DNA of 64,000 nucleotides from Hyphomicrobium nitrativorans NL23. GTDB taxonomy: Bacteria > Pseudomonadota > Alphaproteobacteria > Rhizobiales > Hyphomicrobiaceae. The notes beneath the pieces were generated by a model. The model saw only the letters and a program-made list of their open reading frames with translations. It was not told the DNA's origin and did not search any database. Location of the stretch: contig NC_022997.1 of NCBI RefSeq assembly GCF_000503895.1, forward strand, positions 826,501-890,500. The letters are read 5' to 3'. Positions 46,247 through 62,700 of the stretch are shown piece after piece; positions within the stretch are counted from its first letter, which is position 1, and every line of letters starts with the position of its first letter. The translations under genes and the position numbers were made by a program.

Positions 46247-46759
46247 TCACGGCGTGCCCGGTGCATCGGCCTCCGCCACGTCCGAGGGCGAAGGTTCCCC
46301 GGACGCTTCCGCAAAGCGTGAGATCACGAACGCGGCGATTGCGAGCAGGAAAATGAGCGGCAGGTTTCTTGCCACGCCGCGAGCGATGCCGGGTGCTGCG
46401 GCCGGGGCAACGGATGTGAGCAATGCCATCACCTCGGGCGGGAGCTGGGGGGCGTCGCTTTCCTCATCGGCTTCTTGCGAAGCGTCCGTCGCGTCGGCTG
46501 CTGCGGCTGGTTCCCCTACGGGCTCGCTCTCCTTGTTGTTCACGGCCATCGTGATCAGCGCGATGACAGAAAACAGAACGGCCATGATCGCGTACGCGGA
46601 CACGTGTCCATAAAGCTCGACGAGTTTAATGGAGAGGGCGGCCGTTGCGAACCCTCCGGCCACGAGAAGGGGCACTGCCACCGTCGCGCGTCCCACGAAT
46701 TTTGAGATGGCTGAGTCGATCGAACGCTCGGCCCGCTTGAAAAGTCCCTGGAACAGCAT
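46247..46759 (-). CDS. Small integral membrane protein of unknown function
   Basis: 170 residues. Hydrophobic segments at about 26-48 (ATVAVPLLVAGGFATAALSI), 52-72 (VSAYAIMAVLFSVIALITMA) and 133-150 (LPLIFLLAIAAFVISRF), separated by an acidic Ala/Glu-rich loop (ASQEADEESDAPQLPPEV). The arrangement resembles holin-like or phage-shock-like small membrane proteins, but no motif supports a family. Same orientation as the DUF883 gene 53 bases upstream. Confidence 0.75.
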   Translation of the reverse strand: MLFQGLFKRAERSIDSAISKFVGRATVAVPLLVAGGFATAALSIKLVELYGHVSAYAIMAVLFSVIALITMAVNNKESEPVGEPAAAADATDASQEADEESDAPQLPPEVMALLTSVAPAAAPGIARGVARNLPLIFLLAIAAFVISRFAEASGEPSPSDVAEADAPGTP

Positions 46760-46812
46760 CGGCGGTCAGTTCTCCCCTCCCGATCTCAGACGAAGCGGCG
46801 AGGATGGGTGCG

Positions 46813-47085
46813 TTACGACTTCCAAAGCGCGCCGATCACGAAGCCGAGTCCCGCCGCAACGGCGAGGGTGGTCAACGGCTGGTCTTTGACCGACTTGTCG
46901 ACGGCGCTCTTGAAGTTCTGGGCGACTTCCTGAACCTGCTCGGACGCTTCGCGGCCCTGGTCGGCCACGTTGCGCGCGACGCGCTGGATTTCCTCGCCGG
47001 TGCGCTCGGCGAAGTCGGTGGCCTTGTCCGCAAGGTCGTCCGCAGTCTTGCCGCCGCGCGTGGTGGTCGATGAGGTGGTGTTCAT
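46813..47085 (-). CDS. DUF883 (ElaB/YqjD-like) membrane-anchored protein
   Basis: 90 residues. A polar helical N-terminal part (DDLADKATDFAERTGEEIQR and SEQVQEVAQNFKSAVDKSVK) ends in a C-terminal membrane anchor TLAVAAGLGFVIGALWKS. This is the DUF883 pattern of E. coli ElaB/YqjD, stress-induced tail-anchored proteins that bind ribosomes or protect the membrane in stationary phase. No EcfG-type promoter is seen directly upstream. Confidence 0.85.
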   Translation of the reverse strand: MNTTSSTTTRGGKTADDLADKATDFAERTGEEIQRVARNVADQGREASEQVQEVAQNFKSAVDKSVKDQPLTTLAVAAGLGFVIGALWKS

Positions 47086-47161
47086 GGGAAACGCAGCTCC
47101 TGTTCCTGTACCGAGGGGCCGTCCGCCCCGCTTCTGTAAACGCGGACGACTGAACTTGGTT

Positions 47162-48271
47162 TCACTCGGGAAGCTCAGGACCTTCGTCCGGAAACAGGTG
47201 ACGGAAGGTGACGATGGTCGTCATCAGAATGGGCACGGCCACAAAGGCGCCGATGGGCCCCCACATCCAGGCCCAGAAGCCGATGGCAAGGAAGACAGCG
47301 AAGGGGTTTAGCGTCATGCGGCGCCCTAGCAGCAACGGCGTGAAGAACTGGCCTTCGAGTGCGGTGATGGTGAGATAGGCGGCAGGGGCGATGAGCGCTT
47401 CGCCGACGGTCGGAAACGTGAAGAGGCCGATCAGGAACAGCACTCCGGTGGTGATGGCCGGCCCGATGTAGGGGATATAGTTGAGAACTGCGGCCAACAC
47501 GCCCCAGAGCAGCGGGTTGGGAAGGCCGACGGCGTAGGCGATGAGGGCGGTGACACAGCCAAGCACGGTGTTGATGAGTGTGAACGTGCCGAAGTAAACG
47601 GTCGTTTTGTGTTCGATGTCGGAGAGGATCTTGAGCGCCGTCAGCCGGGCTTCTCTGCTGGGAAAAACGAGCACAGAACGCGTTTTGATCTCCTTCTGGT
47701 AGATCATGTAGAAAATGAGCGCACCGAGGAAGAGAATGCCTTGCGTCACGGCAGGTGTAAGCACCGAGACGATGCTGTGGACGATGTTCGTGTTTTCCTC
47801 GACCCGGAGGCTCGTGCCGCCCTGCCCGCCGGTGGCCTGGTTTAAGGCGCCGAACACTTCCTCAAGGAAGTCGAGCGGCCCCGACATGGCCGCGAGCCTC
47901 TGGCGGATGAGATCGCCCAATTCGTTGGCGCGGCCGAGCCAATAGGTGATCGGCAGTGAGAGCAGGGTCGCAATTGCGAGCAGGATGGCGACGAAGGCGA
48001 GCGTCACGAAGATGACAGCCGGAACGCGGGGCAGCCCGTGGCGCTCGAACCATGCGACGAGAGGGAGCAGGATGTTGGCCACGACCCAGGCCAGGATCAC
48101 GGGCACCGCCACATCGCGCATGAGATAGAGCGCGGCGAGAACGGCGAGTGCGAAGAGGCCGGTGACCGATACATGCGCCACGAGCGCCCAGGTTTCTGCG
48201 GTGGATGGCGTGGGTGCGGGCGTTTCAGCGTTTCTCGGTGTGGTTTCCGGTAACGCCTCCTGGATTGCCAT
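47162..48271 (-). CDS. AI-2E family transporter (PerM/TqsA type)
   Basis: 369 residues with eight or so hydrophobic segments. Family features include the N-terminal ALYLMRDVAVPVILAWVVAN helix, LLPLVAWFERHGLPR loop, and the C-terminal NYIPYIGPAITTGVLFLIGL and LLLGRRMTLNPFAVFLAIGF, ending GPIGAFVAVPILMT. Members are proposed exporters; some were linked to autoinducer-2, others to ion transport, so substrate is unknown. The first 30 residues are Thr/Pro-rich. Confidence 0.9.
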   Translation of the reverse strand: MAIQEALPETTPRNAETPAPTPSTAETWALVAHVSVTGLFALAVLAALYLMRDVAVPVILAWVVANILLPLVAWFERHGLPRVPAVIFVTLAFVAILLAIATLLSLPITYWLGRANELGDLIRQRLAAMSGPLDFLEEVFGALNQATGGQGGTSLRVEENTNIVHSIVSVLTPAVTQGILFLGALIFYMIYQKEIKTRSVLVFPSREARLTALKILSDIEHKTTVYFGTFTLINTVLGCVTALIAYAVGLPNPLLWGVLAAVLNYIPYIGPAITTGVLFLIGLFTFPTVGEALIAPAAYLTITALEGQFFTPLLLGRRMTLNPFAVFLAIGFWAWMWGPIGAFVAVPILMTTIVTFRHLFPDEGPELPE

Positions 48272-48350
48272 GGCGTGTCACTCCGGTTTTTTTGCTTCGT
48301 ACACAAGCTGATGGAGGTTTCGCTCAAAGAGCGTTGCGCTTTTTGGAATG

Positions 48351-48368
48351 CCGCGGCACTTGCCGCGG
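48351..48368. repeat. Perfect inverted repeat between AI-2E transporter and GTPase genes
   Basis: CCGCGGCA-CT-TGCCGCGG, eight perfect pairs around two bases, in the 186-base gap 48272-48457. There is no T run, so it is more likely a protein-binding palindrome or a simple hairpin at the end of the GTPase transcript than a terminator. Confidence 0.45.
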
Positions 48369-48457
48369 GTCGCCTTGCTCCCGGGCGCTTCGTGCCGGTT
48401 CTTTGGTAGGTAAACTGCGGAAGCTTGGTGGCTTGCCTTGACCGATCGCGCCCTTTC

Positions 48458-50041
48458 TCATTTTGGGGGAGACTTGGATGGAGGTTCCCTTTTCAGTGCG
48501 CCGGCAAGAGCGCGTCCCGCGCCGCTGGCCTGCGACCAGAGGGAGCCCCACGTCCATTTGTCCTTAAGTTCGTGCAGCACGCGCAATAGTTGGGCGCGCG
48601 TCGCTTCGGGGAGTGCGTTCGCGATGACCTGCCAGAGGCGCTCCACGTTGTAGGGTTCGGCATCGCGCAGGCTCACCGGCACGGCCTCGTCGGGGCCGAA
48701 GCCGAGGTCGCTCGCGGCAGAGGATATGGCTGCCCTGATGCTGCGGGCTTTTTCGCGCTGATCGTCCGCTTCGTACGGTGGGTCCCATTCGGTGAAGGGG
48801 CGCAGACGGTCGATATGGGTTGCGACGAGGACGATGGGCGGACGGCGGCGGTTGAGGCGGGCGGCGAAGTGCCGGCGCAGCGCATCGAGTGCAGTCCTGT
48901 CAACTTCACGGTCGGCGCGGTTGGCGGCCGCGACCCACAACACGAGATCGCAGTCTGCGGCCTTCTCGATGAGCGCTTCGATGGCGCGAGGATCGGCGAC
49001 GATGCCGGGGCTGTCGATGATCATGGCCGCGGGAAATCCCTCCCGCTCAAGCCGATAGGGCGTAAACTTGGCGGTAGCGGGTAGGGTGTCGGTTGCCGCT
49101 TGGGCTTCGCGGGCAAGCGCATTGACGAGGCTCGATTTGCCGGCACCCGTTTGGCCTGCCACGAGGATGCGGAGCGGTTCTGCCCGAACCTGACCGAGAG
49201 CGGTTTCGTCGGCGGCCGTTTCGTCCGATACGTAGCTCGTGAGCGCCCCTGAGGTGACGCGGAGGCGTCCGCCGTAAAGGTCGATGGCGGCGCGGCCGAT
49301 TTCGGTGATGTAGGCTTCGGTCAGACGGCGCGCGATGGCATCGCGGCCCCACTGCATCATGGCCTTTGAAAGCTGTTCGCGAGCTTCGTTGGCGACCGCT
49401 GTTGCGGGATTGATCATGCGGATGACGCGCCAGACGTCGTAGGCTTGCCCGGCGACGTCGAGCGCGCCGCGCCAGCGATACAGGGCGAGAGCCTGCGCAA
49501 CCGTGAGGCGATCTCCGAAGGGGACGCGTTCGAGCGTGAGCATCCGGAGGCGGCGGCTTACGCGCTCGATGATCGCAAGAGCTTCCGGCATGGTGAACTG
49601 CCAGAGAGGGTCTTTGCGGTCGGGATGGATGCGGTGGGCGACGACCTCGATCGTATCCTGTCCGAGCTTCAGAAGAAGCTCTGGGCTGGTGATGGCCGCA
49701 GGATCGGTTTTCTGCGCGAGGCGTGTCACGTCTGTCCAGGCCAGCTCTTCGGCGGGCGACCAGTGAAGGCTCGGCGTCTCTGCGGGATCCGTGGCGGGGG
49801 CCTCCGCCGTTGAACTTTCAATCGGCTTTGCGGGGGGAAGGAGCCAGCGCTGGGTGAAGTAGACAAGCGCGACGGCAGCAAGGGCGAAGCCGGTCCAGTG
49901 AAGGAGATAACCGTTCTGCCAGAGCCAGATGCTGCCGAGCGGGATGAGCGACAGAGCAGGCACGACAAGGCCGATGCTCAGCAGGATCAGAGAGGCTGTG
50001 CGCCTCGCAGAGCCTTTGCGTGTGCTTTTGTTTCCTGTCAT
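48458..50041 (-). CDS. Membrane-anchored P-loop GTPase (second of a tandem pair)
   Basis: 527 residues. Two hydrophobic segments near the N-terminus (residues 17-37 and 48-66) anchor a large cytoplasmic part. Residues 90-285 are helical. The GTPase domain starts near residue 290: G1 GQTGAGKSS (296-304), G3 DSPG (343-346) and G4 as THID (408-411) instead of NKxD. The domain belongs to the 50S-ribosome-binding/Era-like superfamily. The ATG overlaps the stop of the first GTPase gene, so both are co-expressed, apparently from a stress-type promoter at 51394. Function unknown. Confidence 0.88.
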   Translation of the reverse strand: MTGNKSTRKGSARRTASLILLSIGLVVPALSLIPLGSIWLWQNGYLLHWTGFALAAVALVYFTQRWLLPPAKPIESSTAEAPATDPAETPSLHWSPAEELAWTDVTRLAQKTDPAAITSPELLLKLGQDTIEVVAHRIHPDRKDPLWQFTMPEALAIIERVSRRLRMLTLERVPFGDRLTVAQALALYRWRGALDVAGQAYDVWRVIRMINPATAVANEAREQLSKAMMQWGRDAIARRLTEAYITEIGRAAIDLYGGRLRVTSGALTSYVSDETAADETALGQVRAEPLRILVAGQTGAGKSSLVNALAREAQAATDTLPATAKFTPYRLEREGFPAAMIIDSPGIVADPRAIEALIEKAADCDLVLWVAAANRADREVDRTALDALRRHFAARLNRRRPPIVLVATHIDRLRPFTEWDPPYEADDQREKARSIRAAISSAASDLGFGPDEAVPVSLRDAEPYNVERLWQVIANALPEATRAQLLRVLHELKDKWTWGSLWSQASGAGRALAGALKREPPSKSPPK

Positions 50042-51321
50042 CGGCGCTCCCCGCCGTCGTTGCGTGACAGCCTTTGTTCTTTGGCGATGCGAAAGGCTTC
50101 GCGGAGAGACTGGCGGTAGGTTTCGGCGATGTCGCGGCTGTCCGTGAGACCAAGCCGGCGTCCATGAAGATAGCGGATCGCGGCACGGCCGAGCGCATAC
50201 GTGACCGCGAAGCTTGCGGCGGCCGATGCCGCGGCGCCTGCCGTTTGGCCATAGACCGGAATGAACTTGGCAAGCTGACGCAGGCCGACGCTGGCCGCGA
50301 CCTTCGTGAGCGTGCCCGCGCCAAGGGCAGCGCTCAGCTCCGCATATGCGCGCCGGTCCCAGGCAACGCCGTAGAGCGTGCCGAGGCGTGCGAGCATTCG
50401 TGCCTGGACGGTGGTTGCCGCGATGGTTCCGGCTACGGGGAAGGGGACGAGATCACCTCCCGCTGCGGCCATGGCATGTCCCATGACGATGGGGTCTGCG
50501 GAGCGTGCCTTGGGGTCTGCGGCGAAGCCCGGCATGGCTTGGAGTGCGGCGAGCATTCCGTGCGGCGCGACTGTGGAGAGCGCTTCCGTCAGTGCGTCGA
50601 GCCCGTAATCGTGCGGGGCGAGCGCATCTTCGGGCTTGGTGAGATCTATCGGAATGAAAAGGAGCGGGCCTTTTCCCGGCAGGTTATCGAGCAGGGTGCG
50701 CTGATAGGCGAGGGCGCGCATCAGGTCGACGGGGATGCGGTCTATGGCTTCGGGCGGAGCGTGCGGATCGAACGGGTAGGGCTGCGTGTGGCCTTGGCCC
50801 AGCGGATACGCGTCGTGAAGCGTCGTTTGCGCGACGACAATGGGCCAGTCCGGATGGCGTGAGCGGACCCGATGGAGCGCGTCGCGCACGGCCCCCTGGT
50901 CGGGGTCGGTTGCGCGCATGGTGGCGACGATGAGGTGGGCCGCCGCTTCGCTGATCGCGAGATCGTCGGCGGGATCGTACGCCACCTCGCCGAGCCCCCG
51001 CGTGTCGAGGAAGCGGAGCACGGGCGTGTCGTCCGGGAAGGCGTAGAGGCGGGCTGTGCGGGTGCAGGGGCGAAAGCCGTCGCCGATGTCGGCGTCGCTC
51101 GCCTGGGTGATGGCGCGGATGATCGACGTCTTGCCGCTTTGGACCTTGCCAAGCAACCAGACGACAGGCGCTTGTAGCTCAGTCTGCTGAGAGCGCCCCT
51201 CCGCGGCCTCTGCGGCTCGCGGTCGTCCGTCCGTGTGGCTGGAGCCGGCGCCGGGCCATGGCTTGGCGGTCCCGGACAGGCTCGGCAGCACGCCCCTCAG
51301 CGCTGCAGCCCATCTCGCCAT
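50038..51321 (-). CDS. P-loop GTPase with DUF697-like membrane domain (first of a tandem pair)
   Basis: 427 residues. G1 is GKVQSGKTS (58-66) and G3 DTRG (106-109); the later VVAQTTLHDAY occupies the place of G4 but lacks the usual Asp. The C-terminal half (about 270-390: IVMGHAMAAAGGDLVPFPVA, then TKVAASVGLRQLAKFIPVYG and AASAAASFAVTYALGRAAIR) resembles DUF697, a helical membrane-associated domain found in YcjF-type proteins. Related pairs YcjX/YcjF are stress-induced in enterobacteria. The start is at ATG 51321, 73 bases after a GGAAC-N16-CGTT promoter. Confidence 0.88.
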   Translation of the reverse strand: MARWAAALRGVLPSLSGTAKPWPGAGSSHTDGRPRAAEAAEGRSQQTELQAPVVWLLGKVQSGKTSIIRAITQASDADIGDGFRPCTRTARLYAFPDDTPVLRFLDTRGLGEVAYDPADDLAISEAAAHLIVATMRATDPDQGAVRDALHRVRSRHPDWPIVVAQTTLHDAYPLGQGHTQPYPFDPHAPPEAIDRIPVDLMRALAYQRTLLDNLPGKGPLLFIPIDLTKPEDALAPHDYGLDALTEALSTVAPHGMLAALQAMPGFAADPKARSADPIVMGHAMAAAGGDLVPFPVAGTIAATTVQARMLARLGTLYGVAWDRRAYAELSAALGAGTLTKVAASVGLRQLAKFIPVYGQTAGAAASAAASFAVTYALGRAAIRYLHGRRLGLTDSRDIAETYRQSLREAFRIAKEQRLSRNDGGERR

Positions 51322-51393
51322 GACGCCCTCTCATCGGTCAGTCTCGAACGGTGACACGTGATGTCGATTACCCCATCACGCAAGGCTTAAGTC

Positions 51394-51418
51394 AACGCCC
51401 CGAACAAGATGGGGTTCC
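51394..51418 (-). promoter_or_regulatory. EcfG-type stress promoter of the GTPase pair
   Basis: On the minus strand the sequence reads GGAAC (51418-51414), 16 bases, CGTT (51397-51394), an exact match to the consensus of the alphaproteobacterial general stress sigma factor EcfG. The first GTPase ATG is 73 bases downstream of the -10 element. Confidence 0.8.
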
Positions 51419-51471
51419 TCATCGGCGCGCGTGTGGCAGGCGATCATGATTGCAGCGGAAGGCAACGCGGG

Positions 51472-51885
51472 TCAGGACCCTTCCTTCTGATCTTTGAGAT
51501 ACTGGATGATCTGTTTGCGCGTTTCGGCGTCTTCCACACCCGCAAAGGGCGTCATGGTCGTGTTCGACGCGATAGACTGCGGATTGGCGATGAACTTATC
51601 GAGCGTTGCCTCGTCCCAGGTGATGCTTGACGTAAGGCCGCCCGAGTAGTTGCCGAAGCCTTCGACCTGCCCTGCCGGCGCTCCGAAGATGTTGTGAAGG
51701 CTGGGGCCGAGACGATTGTCGCCTTCGTTTACAGTGTGGCACGTGCGGCAATGGTTGTTGAATTCGATCTGGCCTTTGCTCGCGTCGCCACCGGGGGCCG
51801 GGCCTGCTCCTGCTGCTGCCGGTGGTGCCGATCCCACGTTCAGGCAGGCCGCACTCAGAATGAGCGCCAGGGATGCCGTCCGCAT
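51472..51885 (-). CDS. Secreted c-type cytochrome
   Basis: 137 residues. A signal peptide (LALILSAACLNVGSAPPAAA) precedes a class I cytochrome c with the haem motif CRTCH (Cys46, Cys49, His50) and a likely axial methionine near residue 111 (NTTMTPFAG). The NRLGPSLHNIFGAPAGQVEG segment is typical of cytochrome c2/c-550-like proteins of this group. It transfers electrons in the periplasm; the partner is unknown. A perfect EcfG-type promoter stands upstream, so expression is probably stress-induced. Confidence 0.94.
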   Translation of the reverse strand: MRTASLALILSAACLNVGSAPPAAAGAGPAPGGDASKGQIEFNNHCRTCHTVNEGDNRLGPSLHNIFGAPAGQVEGFGNYSGGLTSSITWDEATLDKFIANPQSIASNTTMTPFAGVEDAETRKQIIQYLKDQKEGS

Positions 51886-51927
51886 TGATGCCTCTCCTTG
51901 TTGCTTTTTCAGCGGTATGCGGAAATT

Positions 51928-51952
51928 AACGCCCTTTTTGGGGAAGAGTTCC
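51928..51952 (-). promoter_or_regulatory. EcfG-type stress promoter of the cytochrome c gene
   Basis: Minus-strand GGAAC (51952-51948), 16 bases, CGTT (51931-51928). The cytochrome start codon lies 43 bases downstream of the -10 element, a normal leader length. Confidence 0.82.
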
Positions 51953-52099
51953 CGGGATACTTTTCTGGCGCGGGCGGACGGTTTCGGCCGCCAAGCTTCG
52001 GCTGTGTGAGGAAGTCCGAGCCTTTTCAGGGATAATCTGGCACCTAGCAGAAGCTTGTGTATGATGCCCCCGCCAACAGGGGAGTGGGTTCAACAACCA

Positions 52100-53944
52100 A
52101 TGCTGGACAGATTGGCCAACGTGTTCGGGGCCCGCGTGCCGGAGGTGGCGGGCGCGGCGCTCATCTTCATCTTCGGCCTGACATTTTGGCTGGGCACCCG
52201 ATACGCGGAGCAAGCGGAGTGGGTGCGCCACTCTCTTCAAGTAGAAATGAAGCTCTCGGGCATCTACGCCCTTTTGAAGGACGCCGAACTCGGCCAGCGG
52301 AGTTACATTCTGACTGGCGAGGCCGATTTCCTGCAGCCGTTCCTGCGGGCAAAGACCGAGCTTCCCGACGAAATTTCCGAACTCAAGGCTCTGCTTTCCG
52401 ACAACGAAGAGCAGTTCGAGGCGTTCAAAGAGGCGGTGCCGATCATCGAGCGGCGCCTTGCTTATGCGGAAGAGACGATCTCCGTGCGGCGCCAGCAGGG
52501 GTTCGATGCGGCGCAGGCGCGCGTGCTGCAGCGCTATGGCTTGAAGGTGACCGAGGAGTTGCGCGACCGCTTCCAGGCTTTGCGGACGGTGGAGCATGGG
52601 CTGCTCGAAAAACGCGAGGCCGATATGCTTCGCACCGTGAACGTTCTTGCCGTCGCAGTCATGATGGCGTTTCTCATGACATTGCTCGCCCTATCGGCCT
52701 GGATATTCCGTACGCGTCGCGACACGGCGGACATCGCAACAGCGAACAAGCTTCTGCAGGAAACGATCGCGGATCGGGATGTGGCGGAGATGCAAATCCG
52801 CCAGATGCAGAAGGTCGAGGCCGTGGGGCAGCTCACAGGCGGGATTGCGCACGACTTCAACAATATGCTCGCCGTCATCATGAGCGGTATCGGGCTTGCG
52901 CAAAAGCGGCTTCAGCGCGGCCAGGACGGCGCCGAGGAGTTCCTCAACGGAGCGCTCGACGGCGCAAACCGCGCGGCGACGCTGGTCAAGCGTCTGCTCG
53001 CGTTCTCGCGCCAGCAGCCGCTTGCACCCAAGGCCATCGACGCGAACAAGTTCGTGGCCGGTATTTCGGAACTGATTTCGCGCGCGCTCGGCGAGATGAT
53101 CCAGATGGAGACGATCCTGGGTGGCGGATTGTGGCTTACGCACGTCGATCCGGTTCAGCTTGAGAACTCGATCCTGAACTTGTGCGTCAACGCGCGCGAC
53201 GCGATGCCGGACGGAGGTTGTCTTACGGTGGAGACGGCGAACTGCCATCTCGACGACCGATACGCCCGCCTGCATCCCGGAATTCCTGCGGGTCAGTATG
53301 TCCTGATCGCCGTGACGGATACCGGCACGGGGATGTCGACCGACATCCTACATAAAGCATTCGATCCATTCTTCACGACGAAGGATGCGACCAAGGGGAC
53401 GGGGCTCGGCCTCTCGCAAGTCTACGGTTTCGTCAAGCAGTCCGGCGGACATGTGAAGATCTACTCGGAGATCGGACAGGGCTCGACGGTCAAAATCTAT
53501 CTGCCGCGCCATTATGCGGTGGAGGCGGAGCGCCACGACGTTGTGGTGCACGAGGTCATCCGGGCGAAGGGTGCAGAGACGGTTCTTTTGGTCGAGGACG
53601 ACGTTCGCGTGCTCGAACTCACGACGGCGAGTTTGCGAGAATTGGGATACACGGTTCTCGTGGCGGGTGGCGCTAAAGATGCGCTCGCACAGCTCGATAG
53701 CGATGTCGAGATCGACCTCCTGCTGACAGATATCGTGATGCCGGAGATGAACGGCCGGAAACTTGCCGATGCGGCGGAAAAGCTGAGACCCGGACTCAAA
53801 GTGATCTTCATGACCGGGTTTACGAAAAACGCGGTGGTGCACAATGGCGTGCTCGACCCCGGCGTGAACTTCCTCGCCAAGCCGTTCTCGCTCGAAGAGC
53901 TGTCGGCGAAAATCTGCGAAGTTCTCGAAACGGAAAGAGCGTAG
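52100..53944 (+). CDS. CHASE3 hybrid histidine kinase with receiver domain
   Basis: 614 residues from the ATG at 52100, which places the membrane helix near the N-terminus; ATGs at 52061/52064 or TTG at 52055 would add up to 15 residues. Two membrane helices (about 16-34 and 180-202) enclose a CHASE3-type sensor (LKDAELGQRSYILTGEADFL). The kinase has phosphorylated His251 in GGIAHDFNNMLAV, ATPase boxes NLCVNARDAMPDGG, VTDTGTGMS and KGTGLGLSQVYGFVKQSGGH; the receiver has LLVEDD, Asp544 (LLTDIVMPEMNG) and a lysine in FLAKPFS. It lacks an output domain, so a phosphorelay partner is expected elsewhere. No stress-type promoter is seen before it. Confidence 0.92.
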   Translation: MLDRLANVFGARVPEVAGAALIFIFGLTFWLGTRYAEQAEWVRHSLQVEMKLSGIYALLKDAELGQRSYILTGEADFLQPFLRAKTELPDEISELKALLSDNEEQFEAFKEAVPIIERRLAYAEETISVRRQQGFDAAQARVLQRYGLKVTEELRDRFQALRTVEHGLLEKREADMLRTVNVLAVAVMMAFLMTLLALSAWIFRTRRDTADIATANKLLQETIADRDVAEMQIRQMQKVEAVGQLTGGIAHDFNNMLAVIMSGIGLAQKRLQRGQDGAEEFLNGALDGANRAATLVKRLLAFSRQQPLAPKAIDANKFVAGISELISRALGEMIQMETILGGGLWLTHVDPVQLENSILNLCVNARDAMPDGGCLTVETANCHLDDRYARLHPGIPAGQYVLIAVTDTGTGMSTDILHKAFDPFFTTKDATKGTGLGLSQVYGFVKQSGGHVKIYSEIGQGSTVKIYLPRHYAVEAERHDVVVHEVIRAKGAETVLLVEDDVRVLELTTASLRELGYTVLVAGGAKDALAQLDSDVEIDLLLTDIVMPEMNGRKLADAAEKLRPGLKVIFMTGFTKNAVVHNGVLDPGVNFLAKPFSLEELSAKICEVLETERA

Positions 53945-53962
53945 TCCGTCAGGGCGTGGACG

Positions 53963-54169
53963 TCAGGCGCGCGTGAATGCCCGCGCAGGCTGACAGGTAT
54001 ATTTCGCGATGTAGTGGTTCGGGTGCGATTCCGCCCACTTTGCGCCTTCAATCTGGGAGGCGATCATGCATCCTCGCAGGTCGACGTTCTCGTTAAGCTG
54101 GATCGGATGCTCTTCGCGGCAGGATGCGCCGGCGACAATCGAACAGACGGTCAACACCAGTTCAAACAC
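53963..54169 (-). CDS. Small secreted-like protein of unknown function
   Basis: 68 residues from the GTG at 54169, preceded by AGGAGG four bases upstream. The N-terminal hydrophobic stretch (FELVLTVCSIVAGASC) and the later pattern CMIASQIEGAKWAESHPNHY, IAKYTCQPA match a small cysteine-containing protein common in Hyphomicrobiales genomes; its role is unknown. Four cysteines may form disulfides after export. The longer open frame upstream is not protein-like. Confidence 0.75.
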   Translation of the reverse strand: MFELVLTVCSIVAGASCREEHPIQLNENVDLRGCMIASQIEGAKWAESHPNHYIAKYTCQPARAFTRA

Positions 54170-54362
54170 GGCGGCCTCCTGAGAATTTGCGCAGAGCACG
54201 TTCGCTTTCAATCGCCGATCGTGGCGCGTGGTTCCGTTTGCTTCACTCACGATTTTGTCGCGAGGTTTCACATGGGCCTATTTCTACCGCCTTGGGCGGC
54301 GAAGCAGCACCCGGCGGCGGGACCGGATGCTGCTGAGGGTGGTTTGTCCTCCGTTGCGGGGA

Positions 54363-54866
54363 CTAAGCGGCGCGTCGATTGAGGCGGCTCTCGGCCATGG
54401 CGCTGAGATGAGCGTCGGCCGCTTTCTCCTCCTTGAGGTTTTCGAGAAGGACGCTTGCGCAGTCGTCGCGACCGAGTTCCTTCGCCCATGCGGCAAGGGT
54501 TCCGTAACGGGTGATCTCGTAGTGCTCGACGGCCTGGGCTGCGGCGATCAGGGCTGCGTCGCGAACGGATTTATCGGCGACTTCGCCCGTCACTTCTTTG
54601 GCTTCCTGGATGATGCCATCGATTGCCGGGCATGAGACGCCACCGATCTCGACGCCGTGCATCTGGAACACTTTTTCCAGACGCTCGATCTGCCGGTGTG
54701 TTTCGCCGAGGTGGTTTTCGAGCCCGTTCTTAAGCTGCGGGTCGGATGCCTGATCAATCATGTTGGGAAGCGCCTTCGCGATCTGATGTTCCGCGTAGTA
54801 GATGTCGCGCAGTGTGTGCACGAAGAGGTCATCCATCGATTTGATGTCGTACGTGAAGAATCCCAT
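54363..54866 (-). CDS. YciE/YciF family (DUF892) ferritin-like protein
   Basis: 167 residues from the ATG at 54866 with AAGGAG ten bases upstream. The sequence shows the YciF pattern: SMDDLFVHTLRDIYYAEHQI, then NHLGETHRQIERLEKVFQMH and AQAVEHYEITRYGTLAAWAK, with Glu and His residues (YYAEHQ, HLGETH, EHYE) positioned as in a di-iron four-helix bundle. YciE/YciF proteins are stress-induced in many bacteria. It lies 75 bases after the SDR gene in the same direction, probably co-transcribed. Confidence 0.92.
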   Translation of the reverse strand: MGFFTYDIKSMDDLFVHTLRDIYYAEHQIAKALPNMIDQASDPQLKNGLENHLGETHRQIERLEKVFQMHGVEIGGVSCPAIDGIIQEAKEVTGEVADKSVRDAALIAAAQAVEHYEITRYGTLAAWAKELGRDDCASVLLENLKEEKAADAHLSAMAESRLNRRAA

Positions 54867-54941
54867 GGCGTGTTTCTCCTTTTGATTTTTTGCCGTGGAC
54901 GCGTGGGCATTCAACAGCTCCTGCTGCTGAGGGAATTGGCG

Positions 54942-55934
54942 TTAATCGTAGCCGCCGACGATCGGCAGGATTTCGCCGGTGATGTAGCTTGAGCAAGACG
55001 GCGCAGCGAGAAAGACATAGGCGGGCGCGATCTCCTCAGGTTGAGCCGCGCGCTTCATCGGCGTGCTTTGTCCAAATTCGCGGACTTCGTCCGCCGGGCG
55101 ATCTGCGGGATTGAGCGGTGTCCAAACGGGACCTGGCGCAATGGCGTTGACGCGGATTCCGCGTGGCAGCACATGCGCCGAAAGCGCCCGTGCGAAGGCG
55201 TGAATGCCGCCTTTGGTGAGGGAGTAATCGAGCAAGTCCTTGCTGCCGTCGATGCCGGTTATCGATCCGGTCATGATGATTGAGCTTCCAGGACGCATAT
55301 GGGGGATTGCTGCGCGGGTGAGATAAAACAGGCCGTAGAGGTTGGTCTTCATCGTGCGGTCGAAGTGATCGTCGCTGATGTCCGAGATTTCGAACGCGTG
55401 CTCCTGAAAGGCGGCGTTGGCCACGACGATGTCGATCGCTCCAAACGCGTCGAGAGTTTTCGTCACCGCGTCTTCGCATGTCGCGCGGTCTGTGACGTCG
55501 CCTGGAAGAAGGATGCAGCGCACGCCTTCTTTTTCCACCGCTTCCTTGGTCTCGCGCGCATCGTCGTGCTCGTCGAGATACGAAATCGCGATGTCGGCGC
55601 CTTCGCGCGCGTAGAGAACGGCGACGGCGCGTCCGATACCCGAATCTCCCCCGGTGATCAGGGCCGCCATGCCAGCGAGCTTCTCGGAGCCCTTATAGGC
55701 GGGCGCTTCGTACATGGGCGCGGTTGCGAGATCTTTTTCGTGCCCCGGTTTGTCCAATTGCGTTTCATCGAGTTCGTCCGGATAGCGGCGCTGGCCGGCT
55801 TGGACGGCTCCGTGTTTTTTGCGACCGCCGCGCGATGTGCCCTCCTTCTTGTCCAGTTCGTTGATGTGCGACTGGATCTTGCGACTTTCCTCTGAAGCCT
55901 GTTTTGCGCGTTCGAGCGTTTTTGGGCGGGTCAT
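54942..55934 (-). CDS. SDR family oxidoreductase (YghA-like)
   Basis: 330 residues from the ATG at 55934; upstream open frame is not protein-like. The Rossmann core has the NADP(H)-binding motif TGGDSGIG (about residues 92-99), the NAA-type motif VVANAAFQ, and catalytic Ser/Tyr/Lys in GSITG and YSLTKGG. A basic, Gln/Lys-rich N-terminal extension of about 85 residues is typical of the general-stress SDR group (YghA/GsiB-like neighbours). Substrate unknown. A near-match stress promoter (TGAAC-N17-CGTT) lies upstream. Confidence 0.92.
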   Translation of the reverse strand: MTRPKTLERAKQASEESRKIQSHINELDKKEGTSRGGRKKHGAVQAGQRRYPDELDETQLDKPGHEKDLATAPMYEAPAYKGSEKLAGMAALITGGDSGIGRAVAVLYAREGADIAISYLDEHDDARETKEAVEKEGVRCILLPGDVTDRATCEDAVTKTLDAFGAIDIVVANAAFQEHAFEISDISDDHFDRTMKTNLYGLFYLTRAAIPHMRPGSSIIMTGSITGIDGSKDLLDYSLTKGGIHAFARALSAHVLPRGIRVNAIAPGPVWTPLNPADRPADEVREFGQSTPMKRAAQPEEIAPAYVFLAAPSCSSYITGEILPIVGGYD

Positions 55935-55966
55935 GTTTGGGCGCCTCTCTATCTTGTTGAACGCAC

Positions 55967-55992
55967 AACGCTCTCCTCGCCGTGGAGGTTCA
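55967..55992 (-). promoter_or_regulatory. Possible EcfG-type promoter of the SDR-yciF operon (one mismatch)
   Basis: Minus strand TGAAC (55992-55988), 17 bases, CGTT (55970-55967); the first G of GGAAC is replaced by T. The SDR start is 33 bases downstream of the -10 element, a fitting distance. Confidence 0.45.
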
Positions 55993-56007
55993 GCGGGCGC
56001 TTTGTTC

Positions 56008-56033
56008 GGAACGGAGGCGTCCCAGGGGCCGTT
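56008..56033 (+). promoter_or_regulatory. EcfG-type stress promoter of the proline-rich protein gene
   Basis: GGAAC (56008-56012), 17 bases, CGTT (56030-56033), an exact consensus match. The ATG of the gene at 56070 is 37 bases downstream. It is divergent to the weaker site for the SDR gene. Confidence 0.8.
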
Positions 56034-56069
56034 ACCTTTGCAAGGAAAAGAAGCGTCAGGAGGAGAACC

Positions 56070-56465
56070 ATGCAGCGGCATCATCCAGGGACCCGTTCCG
56101 TTTCCGCGCTCTTCGTGATTGCGGCCGGTGTCGCCTTGGCGCCTGTGGACGCGGCCGCGCAAATTCCGCCGCCCGCTCAACCTGGTGCACCACCTCCCGC
56201 GATGGAGCCGCCCTCAGAAAGTCCGGTCCCTCCGGCCGATCCTGGTCTTCAAAGCGAGACGCCCGGCGAACCGCTGTCCGAAAAGCTCAAGCGGGGGGAG
56301 GGCGTGCTCGAACCGCCTCGCAGCATCGACCCGGGCATGACCCAGCCCGTTCCCGAAGAATTCGAGAGCAAGACGCCCGTCATCCCACCGCCTCGCGACG
56401 CGGATGGTGCGCCCCGTGACGCAGAGCCGGATGGCGCCGCGCCGCTCAGCCCGCCGGCCAAATAA
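56070..56465 (+). CDS. Secreted proline-rich protein of unknown function
   Basis: 131 residues with AGGAGGAG before the ATG. A signal peptide (SVSALFVIAAGVALAPVDAAA) precedes a Pro/Glu/Ala-rich mature part without regular structure. The stretch LSEKLKRGEGVLEPPRSIDP, then GMTQPVPEEF and TPVIPPPRDA resembles a short conserved motif (LS-KL-R--GV--PP--VDPGM) found in small exported proteins of Hyphomicrobiales; function unknown. Expression is probably stress-controlled by the promoter at 56008. Confidence 0.8.
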   Translation: MQRHHPGTRSVSALFVIAAGVALAPVDAAAQIPPPAQPGAPPPAMEPPSESPVPPADPGLQSETPGEPLSEKLKRGEGVLEPPRSIDPGMTQPVPEEFESKTPVIPPPRDADGAPRDAEPDGAAPLSPPAK

Positions 56466-56500
56466 GGCTGAGGTTTCGGGCGCCTTTGATGCCGCAAGGG

Positions 56501-56773
56501 TTATCCGGGCGAGGTTTTCTTCCGTTGCTTTTTCAGGCGCGGTTTAGAGTCTTCCGTAACCATATCACCCCGAAGGCGGCGCTCCATCTTGGGAGAGATC
56601 GGCGGGCAGGGTAGAATCGTCGTCGGTCCGGTGCCGTGGTCGACCGTTACCGCTTTTTCGACCGCGTCGTCGTCCAACCGCTCCAGTTCGAGGCTTGTGG
56701 CGCTCTCTGGAGTTGTGGCGTCTTTCTTCCGGATCGCCTTGTCTGCCGCCTTTTTCGAGCGTTCGGATGTCAT
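56501..56773 (-). CDS. Small basic protein of unknown function
   Basis: 90 residues from the ATG at 56773 with GGGAG seven bases upstream. Lys-rich ends (SERSKKAADKAIRKKDATTP and RLKKQRKKTSPG) surround an acidic middle (LELERLDDDAVEKAVTVDHG). Probably disordered; no family recognised. That it is a real gene is supported by a perfect GGAAC-N16-CGTT stress promoter 66 bases upstream. Confidence 0.65.
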   Translation of the reverse strand: MTSERSKKAADKAIRKKDATTPESATSLELERLDDDAVEKAVTVDHGTGPTTILPCPPISPKMERRLRGDMVTEDSKPRLKKQRKKTSPG

Positions 56774-56838
56774 GGTTTGCTCCCGATTTTCGCACCTCGC
56801 CTGTCTCGTTGGAAACGGCGTGGGCGGCTTTACAGGCC

Positions 56839-56863
56839 AACGCCGGGTGAGGATCTCGGTTCC
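56839..56863 (-). promoter_or_regulatory. EcfG-type stress promoter of the small basic protein gene
   Basis: Minus strand GGAAC (56863-56859), 16 bases, CGTT (56842-56839), exact consensus. The start codon at 56773 is 66 bases downstream of the -10 element. Confidence 0.78.
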
Positions 56864-56909
56864 TTTGGCGCCACGGCAGAGCCTCGGTGTAGCCATGCTA
56901 TCGTGGCAT

Positions 56910-56934
56910 GGAACGCTGGGAAGAGCAGGACGTT
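56910..56934 (+). promoter_or_regulatory. EcfG-type stress promoter of the large L,D-transpeptidase gene
   Basis: GGAAC (56910-56914), 16 bases, CGTT (56931-56934), exact consensus. The start codon at 56962 lies 28 bases downstream of the -10 element. Confidence 0.82.
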
Positions 56935-56961
56935 ATTTTTGCAGGTGGGTGAGGGACTTCA

Positions 56962-58683
56962 ATGGCGTCGCCTCGTCCTCGGCGTGCGAGGTTCGAAAAG
57001 ATGCGTGAATTCATAAGCGGTATTGTCGTGAAAGCGTCCGTTGCCGCGCTGGTTCTGTTGACCGCGTTTGGCGGCAGCCATACGGCCTCCGCGCAAGCGA
57101 CCGACAGCGACAACGCGGAGGTGCAGGGTCTTTCGGGCCCGGCCGTGATGGCTATCGTCTCGCTCGTCGACCAGAGGATTGCAGTCTATGACGCGCATGG
57201 CGGGGTGGTCCGGGCGCGTGTTTCGAGCGGCCGGACGGAGTATGAGACCCCGGTCGGCATCTACAGCGTGCTGCAGAAGAATCGCGATCACGTTTCCAAT
57301 CTCTACGAAGACGCCCGGATGCCGTTTATGCAGCGTATGACGTGGTCGGGCGTCGCGCTGCACGCTGGTGCGCTGCCGGGCCATCCTGCGTCGGCGGGGT
57401 GTGTGCGGATGCCTCACCAGTTTGCAAGCGAGATCTTCGAGCAGACCAAGCTCGGGACCCGGATCATCGTGGCGCGCCGGGACGTGGCGCCTGTGCCGTT
57501 TTCTCACTCGGCGCTGCCGAAGCCTCAGCTTGCGGCTGCGGAAGCCGTGTTGACCCGCACAACGTTCGATCCTTTGGCCGACGAACAGGGCAAGGGCAGC
57601 GTGTTCGAGCCGGATCTAACCAACTGGCCGGAGCGGCAGGCGGTGCTCGAGTCTCTGCGCGCTGTTGCAGACGAAAAGGCCGCAACGGCGAAGGCGGCCT
57701 CGGCCCCGGTCGAGGAGCTGAAGGCTGCCGTAAAAGCTCGCGCCGATGCCGTCAAGAAGGCGGCTGGGGCGAAGCGTACGGCCGAACGGGCAAAGGGACG
57801 CGCCGAGGGCCGCGTGAAACAGGCTGAACGCCGTCTCGCTGCTGCCAAACAGCCTGCGACGATCAAATCGCGTGAAGATGCGCTTGCCAAGGCGCAGGCT
57901 GGATTTGACGAGGCGGCGGCCAAGCTCGCCGAAGCCGACACCGCGGTGGAAGCTGCCGAAAAAGCCCATGCCGCGGCGGAGCAGGAGCTCGGCGCTGCCC
58001 AGGCCGTTTATGCCGAAGCGGATGCGGCTGCGAAGGAGGCCCGGCGCAAGACGCTACCGATTTCCGTGTTCGTCAGTCTCAAGGAACAGCGTGTCTACAT
58101 CCGTCAAGGCCACGAGGCGGTGACGGATGCGCCGGTTACGATCTCGGAGCCAGAAACGCCCATCGGTACGCACGTCTATACGGCTGTCGATTTCACGCCC
58201 GACGGCGACGACGTGCGCTGGACGGCGGTGTCCATCGGCCCGCACGTGCCGGGCCAGGAGGGGTATGGCAAGAAGAAGGAGCCGACGCCTGCGGATGCCG
58301 AACACGCGGGCAGGGCGCTCGACCGTATCGCGATGCCAGCAGAGGTGAGCGAGCGTGTTTCGGCGTCGCTGTGGCCGGGGTCGTCGATCATCGTGTCCGA
58401 CGAGGAGCAGAGCAAGGAAACCGGCGAGTCGACCGATTTTGTCGTGCTGATCAGCGGCGAGCCGCAGGGCGGCATCGTCATTCGCCCGCGCCGCGAGCGC
58501 CAGCCGCAGTTGCCTGAGTATTTTGTCGATTACGACGCGTACTATTACTATGACGAGTATGGTCGGCGGTACGATCGGCGTCGCTACGACCGCCGCAACG
58601 ACCGGCGGTACGGTCGCTACGACCGCTATTACGACGAGCGGCGCGGTCCGCCACGCGATCGTTCGTTTTTCGGTCTATGGTGA
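56962..58683 (+). CDS. Large L,D-transpeptidase-like envelope protein with coiled coil
   Basis: 573 residues (an ATG at 57001 is an alternative start; both have purine-rich sites). A signal peptide ends near residue 45 (LLTAFGGSHTASAQA). The first YkuD domain (about 60-172) has VSLVDQRIAVYDAHGG and HAGALPGHPASAGCVRMP with His135 and catalytic Cys147. An Ala/Lys/Glu coiled coil follows (about 225-363), then a second YkuD-like region (367-497, VFVSLKEQRVYIRQGHEAVT) lacking the catalytic motif, and an Arg/Tyr/Asp-rich tail (YDRRRYDRRNDRRYGRYDRY). Likely acts in the periplasm on peptidoglycan under stress, given its promoter at 56910. Confidence 0.88.
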   Translation: MASPRPRRARFEKMREFISGIVVKASVAALVLLTAFGGSHTASAQATDSDNAEVQGLSGPAVMAIVSLVDQRIAVYDAHGGVVRARVSSGRTEYETPVGIYSVLQKNRDHVSNLYEDARMPFMQRMTWSGVALHAGALPGHPASAGCVRMPHQFASEIFEQTKLGTRIIVARRDVAPVPFSHSALPKPQLAAAEAVLTRTTFDPLADEQGKGSVFEPDLTNWPERQAVLESLRAVADEKAATAKAASAPVEELKAAVKARADAVKKAAGAKRTAERAKGRAEGRVKQAERRLAAAKQPATIKSREDALAKAQAGFDEAAAKLAEADTAVEAAEKAHAAAEQELGAAQAVYAEADAAAKEARRKTLPISVFVSLKEQRVYIRQGHEAVTDAPVTISEPETPIGTHVYTAVDFTPDGDDVRWTAVSIGPHVPGQEGYGKKKEPTPADAEHAGRALDRIAMPAEVSERVSASLWPGSSIIVSDEEQSKETGESTDFVVLISGEPQGGIVIRPRRERQPQLPEYFVDYDAYYYYDEYGRRYDRRRYDRRNDRRYGRYDRYYDERRGPPRDRSFFGLW

Positions 58684-58724
58684 GCCTTCCGAGCCGTCCA
58701 TAGGGTGGCGAGCAGAGGGTGTTC

Positions 58725-59798
58725 ATGGCGGCGGTGAGATCGAACCCGGCGAGACGTAGCTGTTCCTTTCTGAGCTTGGTCGCGCTCGCGTCTGCGGCGA
58801 TGATCGCGATGCCGCGTCCGCTGTTCGCTGCGGAGCTTCAGGGCGTGGCGGCGATCTCTGTCCACCGCGCCACGGCCGAGCGTATCGAGCGCCGACGTGC
58901 GGTGAAGGCCGGCAGGTTGCAGGTTCCGCTTCCCAATACGCCCGACACAGCGCGTGTGCTGACGCGGCTCGCCGTGGCGGGCTTGCAATCGGGCGCGCCC
59001 GTGATGTTGCGCGTGTTCAAGGCCGAATCCGAGCTTGAGGTTTGGGTGGAAAAGGACGGCGCGTTTGTGCCGTTCGCCGTCTATCCGATCTGCTACTGGT
59101 CGGGGAAGATCGGGCCGAAGCTTCGGGAAGGCGACCGGCAGGCGCCCGAGGGTTTTTATACGATTACCGCAGGACAGCTTCATCATGGCGGACGCTGGCG
59201 GCGTTCGCTCGACATCGGCTATCCGAATGTGTTCGACCGCGTGAACGGGCGGACGGGGTCGCTCATTCTCGTGCACGGCGGGTGCGATTCCGTGGGATGC
59301 TTCGCGATGACGGATGCGGTCAATGCCGAGCTTTACGATCTCGTCTCGGCTTCGCTCAGGCGCGGGCAGGAGCATGTGCCTGTTCACGTGTTTCCGTTCC
59401 GGATGACGGATGCGAACGTGGCCGCTCACGGCAACGGCGCGTGGAAGGACTTCTGGGCCGATCTGAAGCTCGGTTACGATGCGTTCGAGCGTACGCGGCG
59501 CACGCCGCACGTGACGGTGTGTGGGCACCGCTATCGTATTGCAGAGGGCAAACCCGGCAGTGTTGGCGAGGAGGTGGCGTTGTGCGAGGCGGACCTCGAA
59601 ACCTACGGCAGCGTGATGGCCGCGGCGCGGGCCGCGACGAAGGGCGATCTGCCGCCTGAAGAGACGGCTGCGAAGCAGCCTATTCCATGCTCGATGGCGC
59701 TCGCAAGCTGTCGTCGCTGGGTCGCGCTGCGCGATCGGCAGGCCGCCAACGGGACCGTTGCGATCAAGCAGAGCAGCGGTCGGTCGCGCGTTCGCTGA
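58725..59798 (+). CDS. Secreted L,D-transpeptidase (YafK-like)
   Basis: 357 residues from the ATG at 58725 with AGAGGG six bases upstream; a GTG at 58719 is also possible. A signal peptide (SLVALASAAMIAMPRPLFAA) precedes a YafK-type domain: APVMLRVFKAESELEVWVEK, WSGKIGPKLREGDRQAPEGF and VHGGCDSVGCFAMTD with His184 and Cys192. The E. coli relative DpaA (YafK) detaches Braun lipoprotein from peptidoglycan, so hydrolysis or transfer are both possible. It follows the large transpeptidase by 41 bases and may share its stress promoter. Confidence 0.9.
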   Translation: MAAVRSNPARRSCSFLSLVALASAAMIAMPRPLFAAELQGVAAISVHRATAERIERRRAVKAGRLQVPLPNTPDTARVLTRLAVAGLQSGAPVMLRVFKAESELEVWVEKDGAFVPFAVYPICYWSGKIGPKLREGDRQAPEGFYTITAGQLHHGGRWRRSLDIGYPNVFDRVNGRTGSLILVHGGCDSVGCFAMTDAVNAELYDLVSASLRRGQEHVPVHVFPFRMTDANVAAHGNGAWKDFWADLKLGYDAFERTRRTPHVTVCGHRYRIAEGKPGSVGEEVALCEADLETYGSVMAAARAATKGDLPPEETAAKQPIPCSMALASCRRWVALRDRQAANGTVAIKQSSGRSRVR

Positions 59799-62700
59799 TC
59801 ATCCGAAGCGCGCGGCCTCCAGCTCTTTCTCCAGCACCTGAGTTTCGTGAGAGCGCGGCTTCGAGAGCGGGGCAAGGATGCGGTAGGCGACCGGCGTCAG
59901 GAACAGCGTCAGCAGCGTCGCGAAGCCGAGCCCGCCGATGATCACCCAGCCGAGGGCGAGGCGCGCTTCCGCACCCGCTCCGAAGGCGAGCACGAGCGGG
60001 ACCGCGCCGATGACGGATGCGGCCATCGTCATCATCACCGGGCGCAAGCGGACGGTGGAGGCATTGCGGATGGCGGTGTCCACGTCCATCCCTTCGTCGC
60101 GCCGCTGGTTTGCGAACTCGACGATGAGGATGCCGTTCTTGGCCATGATGCCGACCAGGAGCACGAGGCCGATCTGGCTGTAGACGTTGAGCGTGCCGCC
60201 GGACAGGAGGATGGCGATGGCCGCTGCCGCCAATCCGAACGGCACCGTGAACAGGATCACCAGTGCGCTCACGATGCTTTCGAACTGGGCGGCGAGCACC
60301 AGGAACACGACGAGCAGCGCAATCGCGAACACGAACGCGGTGTTCTGCGACGTCTCGGCCAGTGTGCGGGCTTCGCCCAGAAGGATGGTGGACATCGTGG
60401 GGTCGAGGACCTCGGCGGCGATGGTGCGCATCGCGTCCACGGCGTCGCTCAGCACCATGCCTTCGTCGAGGCCGGCGGTGATGGGGACCGCACGCTGGCG
60501 GTCCTCGCGGCCGAGGCTCGGTGCGATGGCGCTTTCCTGGATCGTCACCAGCGAGGACAGAGAGACGAAGCTGCCGTTGTTGGTTTTTACGAAGACGTTG
60601 CCGAGGTCGGTCGGGTCATCGATGGGTCGGCCGCCGGCCTTCACCTGAACCTCGACGATTTCATCGCCGATGAACAGGTCTGCCGCCTTCTGATAGTCCA
60701 CCATGGTGTTGATGAGGCTGGTTATGCTGGCGATGGGCACGCCGAGCTTGGTGGCCGCCTCGCGGTTGATGCGGACAGAGAGTTGAGGCTGTGTCGTGTC
60801 GTAATCCGTGCGCGCGTTGCGGAAGCCCGGCGTTTCCGAGAGGCGGCTTGCGAGTTCCACCGCCTTTTCGGCGAGCCGGTCATAGTCGGGCCCGGCGACG
60901 GCAAAGCGGAAGCCCTGCCCGCCGCCGCGGATGCCGAGGCTGTTGGGCTGGCGCATGGCCACGGTGAGACCCGGGATGCCGGACAGCCGTTGCTGCAACT
61001 CGGCTTGGATTTCGTGCTGTGACCGGCTGCGCTCGTTCCACGCTGCGAGGGGAGCCACGATCATGGCGCGATTGGCGTTGCCGCCCATGCCGATGGTTGC
61101 GAGCACGCCTGTTATCTCGCCTTTCTCCTTCAGCTCCGCCAGTATGTTTTCGACCCGCTCGGTGAGCTTCGCCATGTACTCCAGGTTGGCGCCTTGCTGG
61201 GTGTTGAGGCTCACCATGACGATGCCGCGGTCTTCGGCGGGCGTGATTTCCTGAGGCAGCATCGTGTAGGCGATCCAGCCCAGAGCGGCGAAGCCAAACG
61301 AGGCGGCGACGAGCAGGTAACGGGCGCGCAGGCAGAGATCGAGCGTGCGGGCGTATGCTTCCGCCAAGCGGTTCGAGAGGCGGGTAAACCAGCTTTCGCG
61401 CGCAGGCTCGTCGTCGTTGGCGCGCGGGCGTGCGCTCGGCGCGCCAAGTTTGGAGGCCATCATCGGGACGACGGTGAGCGCGACGAAGGAGGAGATGGTG
61501 ACAGCGAAGGCGAGCACGAAACCGAACTCGGAGAACAAGTTTCCGACGAGGCCCGGCATGAACGAGATCGGCACGAACACTGCGATGAGGACCGCGGTGG
61601 TAGAGAGAACGGCGAACACAATCTCGTAGGTGCCGAGCACGGCTGCTGCGCGCGGGCCGTTGCCCATGGCGCGATAGCGCGAAATGTTCTCGACCACGAT
61701 GATGGCGTCGTCCACGACGAGGCCGGTCGCGATGACGAGAGCGAGCAGCGTCAGCATGTTGATGGAGAAACCCGCAATCCAGATCGCGGCCAGCGTGCCG
61801 ATGAGCGAGACAGGGATCGCGAACGCGGGCGGGATCGTTTCGCGGGCCGAGCCGAGAAACGCGAAGATGACGAGGATGACGATCACGGTGGCAAGCAGAA
61901 GGGTGATGACCACCTCGGTGATGGACGCGCGGATGAAGATCGCGTCGTCGGACGTGATGGCGATGCTGACGCCTTCGGGCAGCGAGCGCTGGAGATCGGC
62001 CACGGCCTGGCGTACGCCGTCCGAGATGGCGATGGTGTTGGCCTTGGCCTGACGTACGATCTCGACGCCGATGGCGGTGCTTCCGTCGAGGCGCGTGATG
62101 GCGGTCGCGTCCTGGAAGGCCCATCGTACGAAGGCCACATCGCCGACCTTCGTTCGGGCGTCGATTTCGAGGGCCGCGACATCGGCGGGGGTATCGATGG
62201 GGGCTTCCGCGCGCACGATGAGCTGCTGGGTGGCGTTTTCCAGCGCGCCGGATGGCGTCGTGATGGAGGCCGCCCCGATCGTCGAGATCAGGTCGCTGAG
62301 GCCGATGCCGCGTGCGGCGAGGGCCACCTGGGAGACGCGGACCTCAATGGTGCGTGCGCGCAGGCCGTAGGAGTTTGCGGCCGCGACGCCGTCGACGGCT
62401 GCGAGCCGATCCTCGATGACGTTCTCGACCAGATCCGTCAGCTCGCTTTCCGAGAGGGTATCGGACGCGACGGCCATGCGGATGATGGGGGAGGCATCCG
62501 CGTCGGCCTTCATGACGCGCGGCTCCTGATCCATGTCGTTCGGCAACTGGCGGGCGACGCTGGCGACCGCGTCGCGGACGTCCATCGCTGCAACCTGCAT
62601 GTCGGTGGCGGTCGAGAACTCGATGGAGACCCGGCTCGATCCGTAAGACGAGTTGGAGGTGATCCCCGTGACGCCCTGGACGCGTGCCACCGCGCTTTCG

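Follow-up and report, generated by a model that had tools for sequence, protein, structure and literature searches.

We have analyzed a 64-kb stretch of the genome of the methanol-using bacterium Hyphomicrobium nitrativorans NL23 (bases 826501-890500 of the single contig of 3,653,837 bp, here termed the window), in which a closely-spaced set of elements of the form GGAAC-N16/17-CGTT, with some one-letter variants, very probably serve as promoters for the organism's own EcfG sigma factor. Judged from the sequence, this is a real general stress promoter block, ordinary in kind and unusually dense, and an instance of a known system. The motif, its spacing, its placement before genes, the presence of the three regulators in the genome and conservation within the genus are directly observed, and the assignment is based upon these.

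The sites and their chance occurrence

Scanning the window for the exact pattern GGAAC-N16/17-CGTT gave five matches, all in the block and none elsewhere, with the coordinates, strands and orientations that had been given in a first-pass annotation. Gaps are given as the distance between the last base of CGTT and the start codon, the latter chosen by means of orthologues and open reading frames. On the minus strand the site at 51394-51418 is 72 bp from the ATG (51321) of GTPase 2, the first gene of a GTPase operon; that at 51928-51952 is 42 bp from a cytochrome c gene, and that at 56839-56863 is 65 bp from the gene of a 90-aa protein. On the plus strand the site at 56008-56033 is 36 bp before the gene of a Pro-rich exported protein, and that at 56910-56934 is 66 bp before the ATG at 57001 of a pair of YkuD genes (27 bp if the ATG at 56962 is used). 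The short distance to the start codons that had been claimed for the exact sites is thus found, at 36-72 bp. As had also been proposed, a near-consensus site TGAAC-N17-CGTT (55967-55992, minus strand) faces the SDR-yciF genes, 32 bp before the SDR start. Including two further one-letter variants described below, all eight sites (five exact, three variant) are in the right orientation and lie 32-72 bp before a start codon.

A motif this short could arise by chance in a GC-rich genome. The whole genome contains 95 exact matches compared with 63 of the reversed pattern, and 41 of the 95 are in called coding DNA, so that many of the 95 may indeed be chance occurrences. However, 100 shuffles of the window gave a mean of 0.99 exact matches, and none contained five. 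All five exact sites of the block are placed as promoters. Lying within 5,541 bp they form the densest cluster among the 95, and with 95 positions placed uniformly at random just 29 of 20,000 simulations reached five in that length (p about 0.0015). Both calculations bear out the low probability that had been claimed for five exact, well-placed matches. Related sites recur at similar distances in other genomes of the genus (below). On the basis of the shuffles, the reversed pattern, gene placement, the scan statistic and the relatives, chance is rejected as an extremely improbable origin of the sites.

The genome-wide placement of matches was analyzed using a home-made codon-usage gene caller, with the counts left as called; this missed the Pro-rich gene (56070) behind the site at 56008 and placed the start of GTPase 2 too late, and three sites that are inside called genes yet close to the start of the following gene were left out of the promoter-placed count. 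On this basis 54 of the 95 exact matches lie between genes, and 42 are intergenic with a start no more than 300 bp downstream (38 of 90 when the five of the window are removed). In the reversed control only 2 of 30 classified matches (from the 63) are so placed (Fisher p 7e-5). When the genome is scanned against its coding background there is therefore an excess of promoter-placed matches over the reversed control.

Outside the window there are 32 flagged targets with a site no more than 130 bp upstream, in one of which (a trehalose-phosphate-synthase-type gene at 2987936) the site lies inside the preceding called gene. Of these 32, phyR and 20 others were scanned for families, and 17 of the 20 matched a Pfam family with E no greater than 1e-4. 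The targets include two further DUF892, two PRC-barrel, one pyridoxamine-oxidase-like and one DUF1328 protein, as well as phyR itself. Twelve intergenic exact sites have no called start within 300 bp downstream; three of these (G000:C1:102473, 234407 and 1898369) could possibly mark small genes that the caller overlooked or additional small RNAs.

The regulators and the reader of the sites

The first-pass annotation proposed a regulator acting in trans, and its reading would have failed had the genome lacked ecfG, phyR and nepR. The genome encodes all three of the expected proteins, with a single nepR-ecfG pair followed by phyR, all on the same strand (genome 1669544-1671350), and an action in trans fits their location about 0.78 Mb from the block. 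PhyR scored 368 bits with NF006623 against a cut-off of 240, and its PDB matches include 4qic, named PhyR; NepR is above the Pfam cut-off. The best PDB match of the EcfG candidate is 5uxx, whose annotation there goes no further than RNA polymerase sigma factor, and which we take to be an EcfG-type factor with NepR.

The promoters might be real, and yet be read by a different extracytoplasmic function (ECF) sigma factor whose preferred -35 box overlaps that of EcfG. GGAAC-like -35 boxes are common to several ECF groups, and the genome has four other ECF-like proteins (L033-L036) that are 28-33% identical to EcfG. In the available literature text GGAACTT is given for E. coli RpoE. By contrast, the full GGAAC/CGTT pair is the published EcfG motif in the available text of three papers (PMC3892343, PMC4814048, PMC6599016), and the same motif is found upstream of phyR, at 65 bp, and of nepR, at 331 bp. 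Moreover, the excess of the motif tracks the presence of NepR. Across 60 genomes the ratio of exact to reversed matches has a median of 1.04 in those with NepR (n=37) and 0.46 in those without (n=23), where kinship and composition are ignored, and it is 1 or greater in 19 of the 37 and 1 of the 23 respectively. A different ECF factor is therefore very unlikely as the reader of these sites, and EcfG is preferred.

Conservation and variation of the sites

Orthologous stretches were compared in seven genomes of the same genus (G001-G007). As a baseline, an exact site was present in 3 of 2000 shuffled upstream regions, and the best score was 8/9 letters in 115 of 2000. The site of the GTPase operon is exact in all seven genomes, 60-76 bp upstream of GTPase 2. 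This includes G002 and G004, where the neighboring genes are the kinase and yciF respectively; since the site is exact despite the differing neighbors, the promoter travels with the operon. The cytochrome c site is exact in four of seven relatives and has 8/9 letters in two, with none in G004, where the contig is fragmentary. The sites of the Pro-rich and the 90-aa proteins are each exact in 4/5 relatives, the distance of the latter in G002 depending on the choice of start.

Of 145 called genes in the stretches of the relatives, 15 carry an exact site no more than 200 bp upstream, and by our own reading all of these are orthologues of block genes. We also counted every dyad of five and four letters, with spacers of 12-22, in intergenic DNA of the seven relatives (138 segments, 38 kb). 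With runs of N set aside, GGAAC-N16-CGTT was the commonest, occurring 19 times in 19 segments. Over spacings of 8-27 in this DNA, GGAAC and CGTT are 16 apart in 19 cases and 17 apart in 9, with at most one case at any other value. Because the stretches had been chosen for their orthology to window genes, this indicates a motif shared by the upstream regions of the block rather than by whole genomes.

Two conserved weaker sites had been overlooked, so that the claim of a single near match was correct for the TGAAC site and incomplete in number. The first of these, GGAAC-N16-CGAT at 54211-54235 (minus strand), is 41 bp from the start of a gene encoding a 68-aa protein. Alignment of the upstream regions shows GGAAC retained in all five relatives that have the gene (G001, G002, G005, G006 and G007), with a -10 element of CGAT or AATT; scoring, unlike the alignment, favored other 7/9 sites in G001 and G002. 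The second, GAAAC-N16-CGTT at 47139-47163 (minus strand), is 53 bp before a DUF883 gene. In six of six relatives the corresponding site is GAAAC, or GCAAC in G003, with CGTT, a spacer of 16 or 17 and a distance of 47-73 bp; in this comparison G004 was not covered, and orthologues were assigned by place and N-terminal likeness. With these two additional sites the block would extend over about 46.2-59.8 kb, so that the proposed stress block is supported while its earlier limits of 51394 and 56934 are too narrow.

It might be argued that just the exact sites function, and that those with TGAAC, GAAAC or GGAAC-CGAT are relics or coincidences, given how frequently the shuffled upstream regions reach 8/9. 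We consider this rather unlikely. The variants recur at similar distances, for SDR in 4/5, DUF883 in 6/6 and the 68-aa gene in 5/5 relatives. Moreover, in the available text of a study of Sphingomonas melonis (PMC6599016), GCAAC and AATT are among the putative elements given for genes that depend on EcfG, and by analogy it is plausible that the variants here are weaker promoters. In the genus SDR has GCAAC-N16-CGTT at 31-33 bp in three of five relatives and GAAAC-N16-CGTT in G007, with no site in G001, and in G011, from another genus, the SDR site is exact.

A number of observations weigh against EcfG as the reader of the whole block. The ratio of exact to reversed matches is below 1 in 18 of the 37 genomes with NepR, and raw counts are barely above the control in some genomes of the genus (the ratio is 0.90 in G002). 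The YkuD site is exact in just two of the six relatives with upstream DNA; in the other four it is well placed with 8/9 letters in two, and there is none well placed in two. In this comparison the match in G005 contains a stop codon, and in G004 the contig stops short of the upstream DNA. SDR lacks an exact site in all five relatives within the genus. Outside the genus an exact site is absent from the 400 bp upstream of GTPase 2 in six of six orthologues, and five of the six genomes have NepR. Lastly, 68 of 79 named SDR relatives have no exact site within 300 bp upstream (the survey covered 79 of 80 named loci, one having too little upstream DNA).

Of the 11 SDR loci that do have an exact site, two have it at 170 and 268 bp; the controls gave a site on the wrong strand in 4/79 and the reversed pattern in 0/79. 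With so few named loci carrying the site, a general link between SDR genes and this promoter is rejected.

The genes, a candidate small RNA and the predicted response

Several of the block genes look protective. GTPase 1 (48458-50041, minus strand), with an MMR_HSR1/dynamin-like P-loop domain, and GTPase 2 (50038-51321, minus strand), with a P-loop and DUF697-like C-terminus whose Pfam matches are both just below the curated cut-offs, are encoded by an overlapping pair of genes (48458-51321) that is adjacent in seven of seven genus relatives. They are followed by an AI-2E family transporter (47162-48271, minus strand; PF01594, 2.5e-40); this gene is probably part of the GTPase operon, and in relatives the gene after GTPase 1 is similar in size. 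The DUF883 (glycine zipper) protein (46813-47085, minus strand; PF19029, 3.8e-7) presumably shares a transcription unit with a 170-aa protein that has no Pfam match (46247-46759, minus strand); a gene of similar size (175-193 aa) is also next after the DUF883 gene in G001, G002, G003, G005 and G007. The minus strand further encodes an exported cytochrome c (51472-51885; PF13442/PF00034), the 68-aa protein (53963-54169; 63-69% identity in five relatives), a YciF-like DUF892 protein (54363-54866; PF05974, 1e-59), the SDR oxidoreductase (54942-55934; PF13561, NF005214) and the 90-aa charged protein (56501-56773). The plus strand encodes the 131-aa Pro-rich protein, with a signal-like N-terminus by eye (56070-56465; 46-57% identity in relatives), an L,D-transpeptidase-like YkuD protein (57001-58683; PF03734, 5e-21) and a second YkuD protein, YkuD2 (58719-59798). 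The 68-aa, 90-aa and Pro-rich proteins gave no Pfam match. YkuD2 is without a site of its own, the best scores being 6-7/9 here and in six relatives, and it is probably co-transcribed with the first YkuD gene. A search of Rfam with 46000-60000 of the window gave no match at gathering scores.

A hybrid kinase with CHASE3-HisKA-HATPase-REC domains is also encoded within the block (52100-53944, plus strand). It is CckA-like, retains its place within the block of G005, G006 and G007, and is beside GTPase 2 in G002. It has no EcfG-type site in the window, the best score being 6/9 here and 7/9 in four of four orthologues; a GAAC-N17-GGTT match was found in G005 only, 126 bp upstream. In the available text of PMC12148442 the kinases of the general stress response (GSR) are described as HWE/HisKA2. 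The kinase of the block is of HisKA type, and for these reasons it is rejected as a member of the regulon.

Outside the window, an exact EcfG-type site that diverges from the site on the nepR side faces a conserved two-hairpin element, about 98 nt long, whose loops are C-rich (L052, G000:C1:1668907-1669005, minus strand). This arrangement is found in eight of eight genomes of the genus. Of the 29 predicted base pairs in eight sequences, there are 17 cells with a one-sided change that retains the pair, one with a two-sided change and five that are broken or gapped, so that covariation support for the structure is thin. A model made from the eight sequences finds each of them again, by construction, with one copy in each; in the other 52 genomes it gave no match, where the filters can lose weak matches. 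The element has no Rfam match even at E 5, and by eye no clear T-run follows the second hairpin. We regard it as a candidate GsrN-like small RNA that may be driven by EcfG. Like GsrN of the Caulobacteraceae and its predicted relatives it has an EcfG-type site, C-rich loops and a place beside GSR genes, and its position and site resemble what the available text of PMC5869019 calls GsrN homologues. The likeness is one of position, site and loops, and transcription of the element is predicted.

In the established partner switch, as described in the available text of PMC8103513, phosphorylated PhyR binds NepR, thereby freeing EcfG. In the block, a stress signal would thus be expected to result in PhyR-P taking NepR away from EcfG. 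The freed EcfG-RNA polymerase would then bind GGAAC (-35) and CGTT (-10), with start sites presumably set by these elements. Eight units would be transcribed, with predicted extents GTPase 2-GTPase 1-AI-2E transporter, DUF883-170 aa, cytochrome c, the 68-aa protein, SDR-yciF, the Pro-rich exported protein, the 90-aa protein and YkuD-YkuD2. Judged by their families, the YkuD proteins would cross-link the cell wall, the DUF892 and DUF883 products would be stress proteins, SDR would be an oxidoreductase and the cytochrome c periplasmic, and the products may be protective. A more elaborate possibility, which we advance tentatively as somewhat short of an even chance, is a tuned stress arm specific to the genus. 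This would combine a strong, always-retained promoter of the two-GTPase/AI-2E membrane operon with conserved weaker -35 variants (GAAAC, GCAAC, TGAAC) for SDR-yciF and DUF883. Its third component would be a structured small RNA next to nepR, under the control of EcfG, with C-rich loops and no place in any Rfam family.

Like the EcfG (ECF15) promoters of alphaproteobacteria, those proposed here have -35 GGAAC, -10 CGTT and a spacer of 16-17 in a genome with nepR-ecfG-phyR, and the targets include DUF892, DUF1328 and pyridoxamine-oxidase-like proteins. They differ in that eight sites lie within about 10 kb, and in having a GTPase operon and YkuD pair among the targets. In addition, phyR comes after ecfG in the same orientation, where a divergent arrangement is usual according to the available text of PMC8103513. 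In the open-licence literature no study of EcfG in Hyphomicrobium was among the matches listed. When DUF697, GTPase and YciF were combined with the stress response, the literature gave either no paper or, among the matches listed, no paper that contains DUF697.

The analysis provides a predicted and testable general stress regulon for Hyphomicrobium. An order of promoter strength can be predicted from which of the conserved sites are strong and which are weak, with that of the GTPase operon expected to be the strongest and those with GAAAC, TGAAC or CGAT weaker. The regulon would tie the GTPase operon and the YkuD pair to the general stress response, together with several uncharacterized small proteins.

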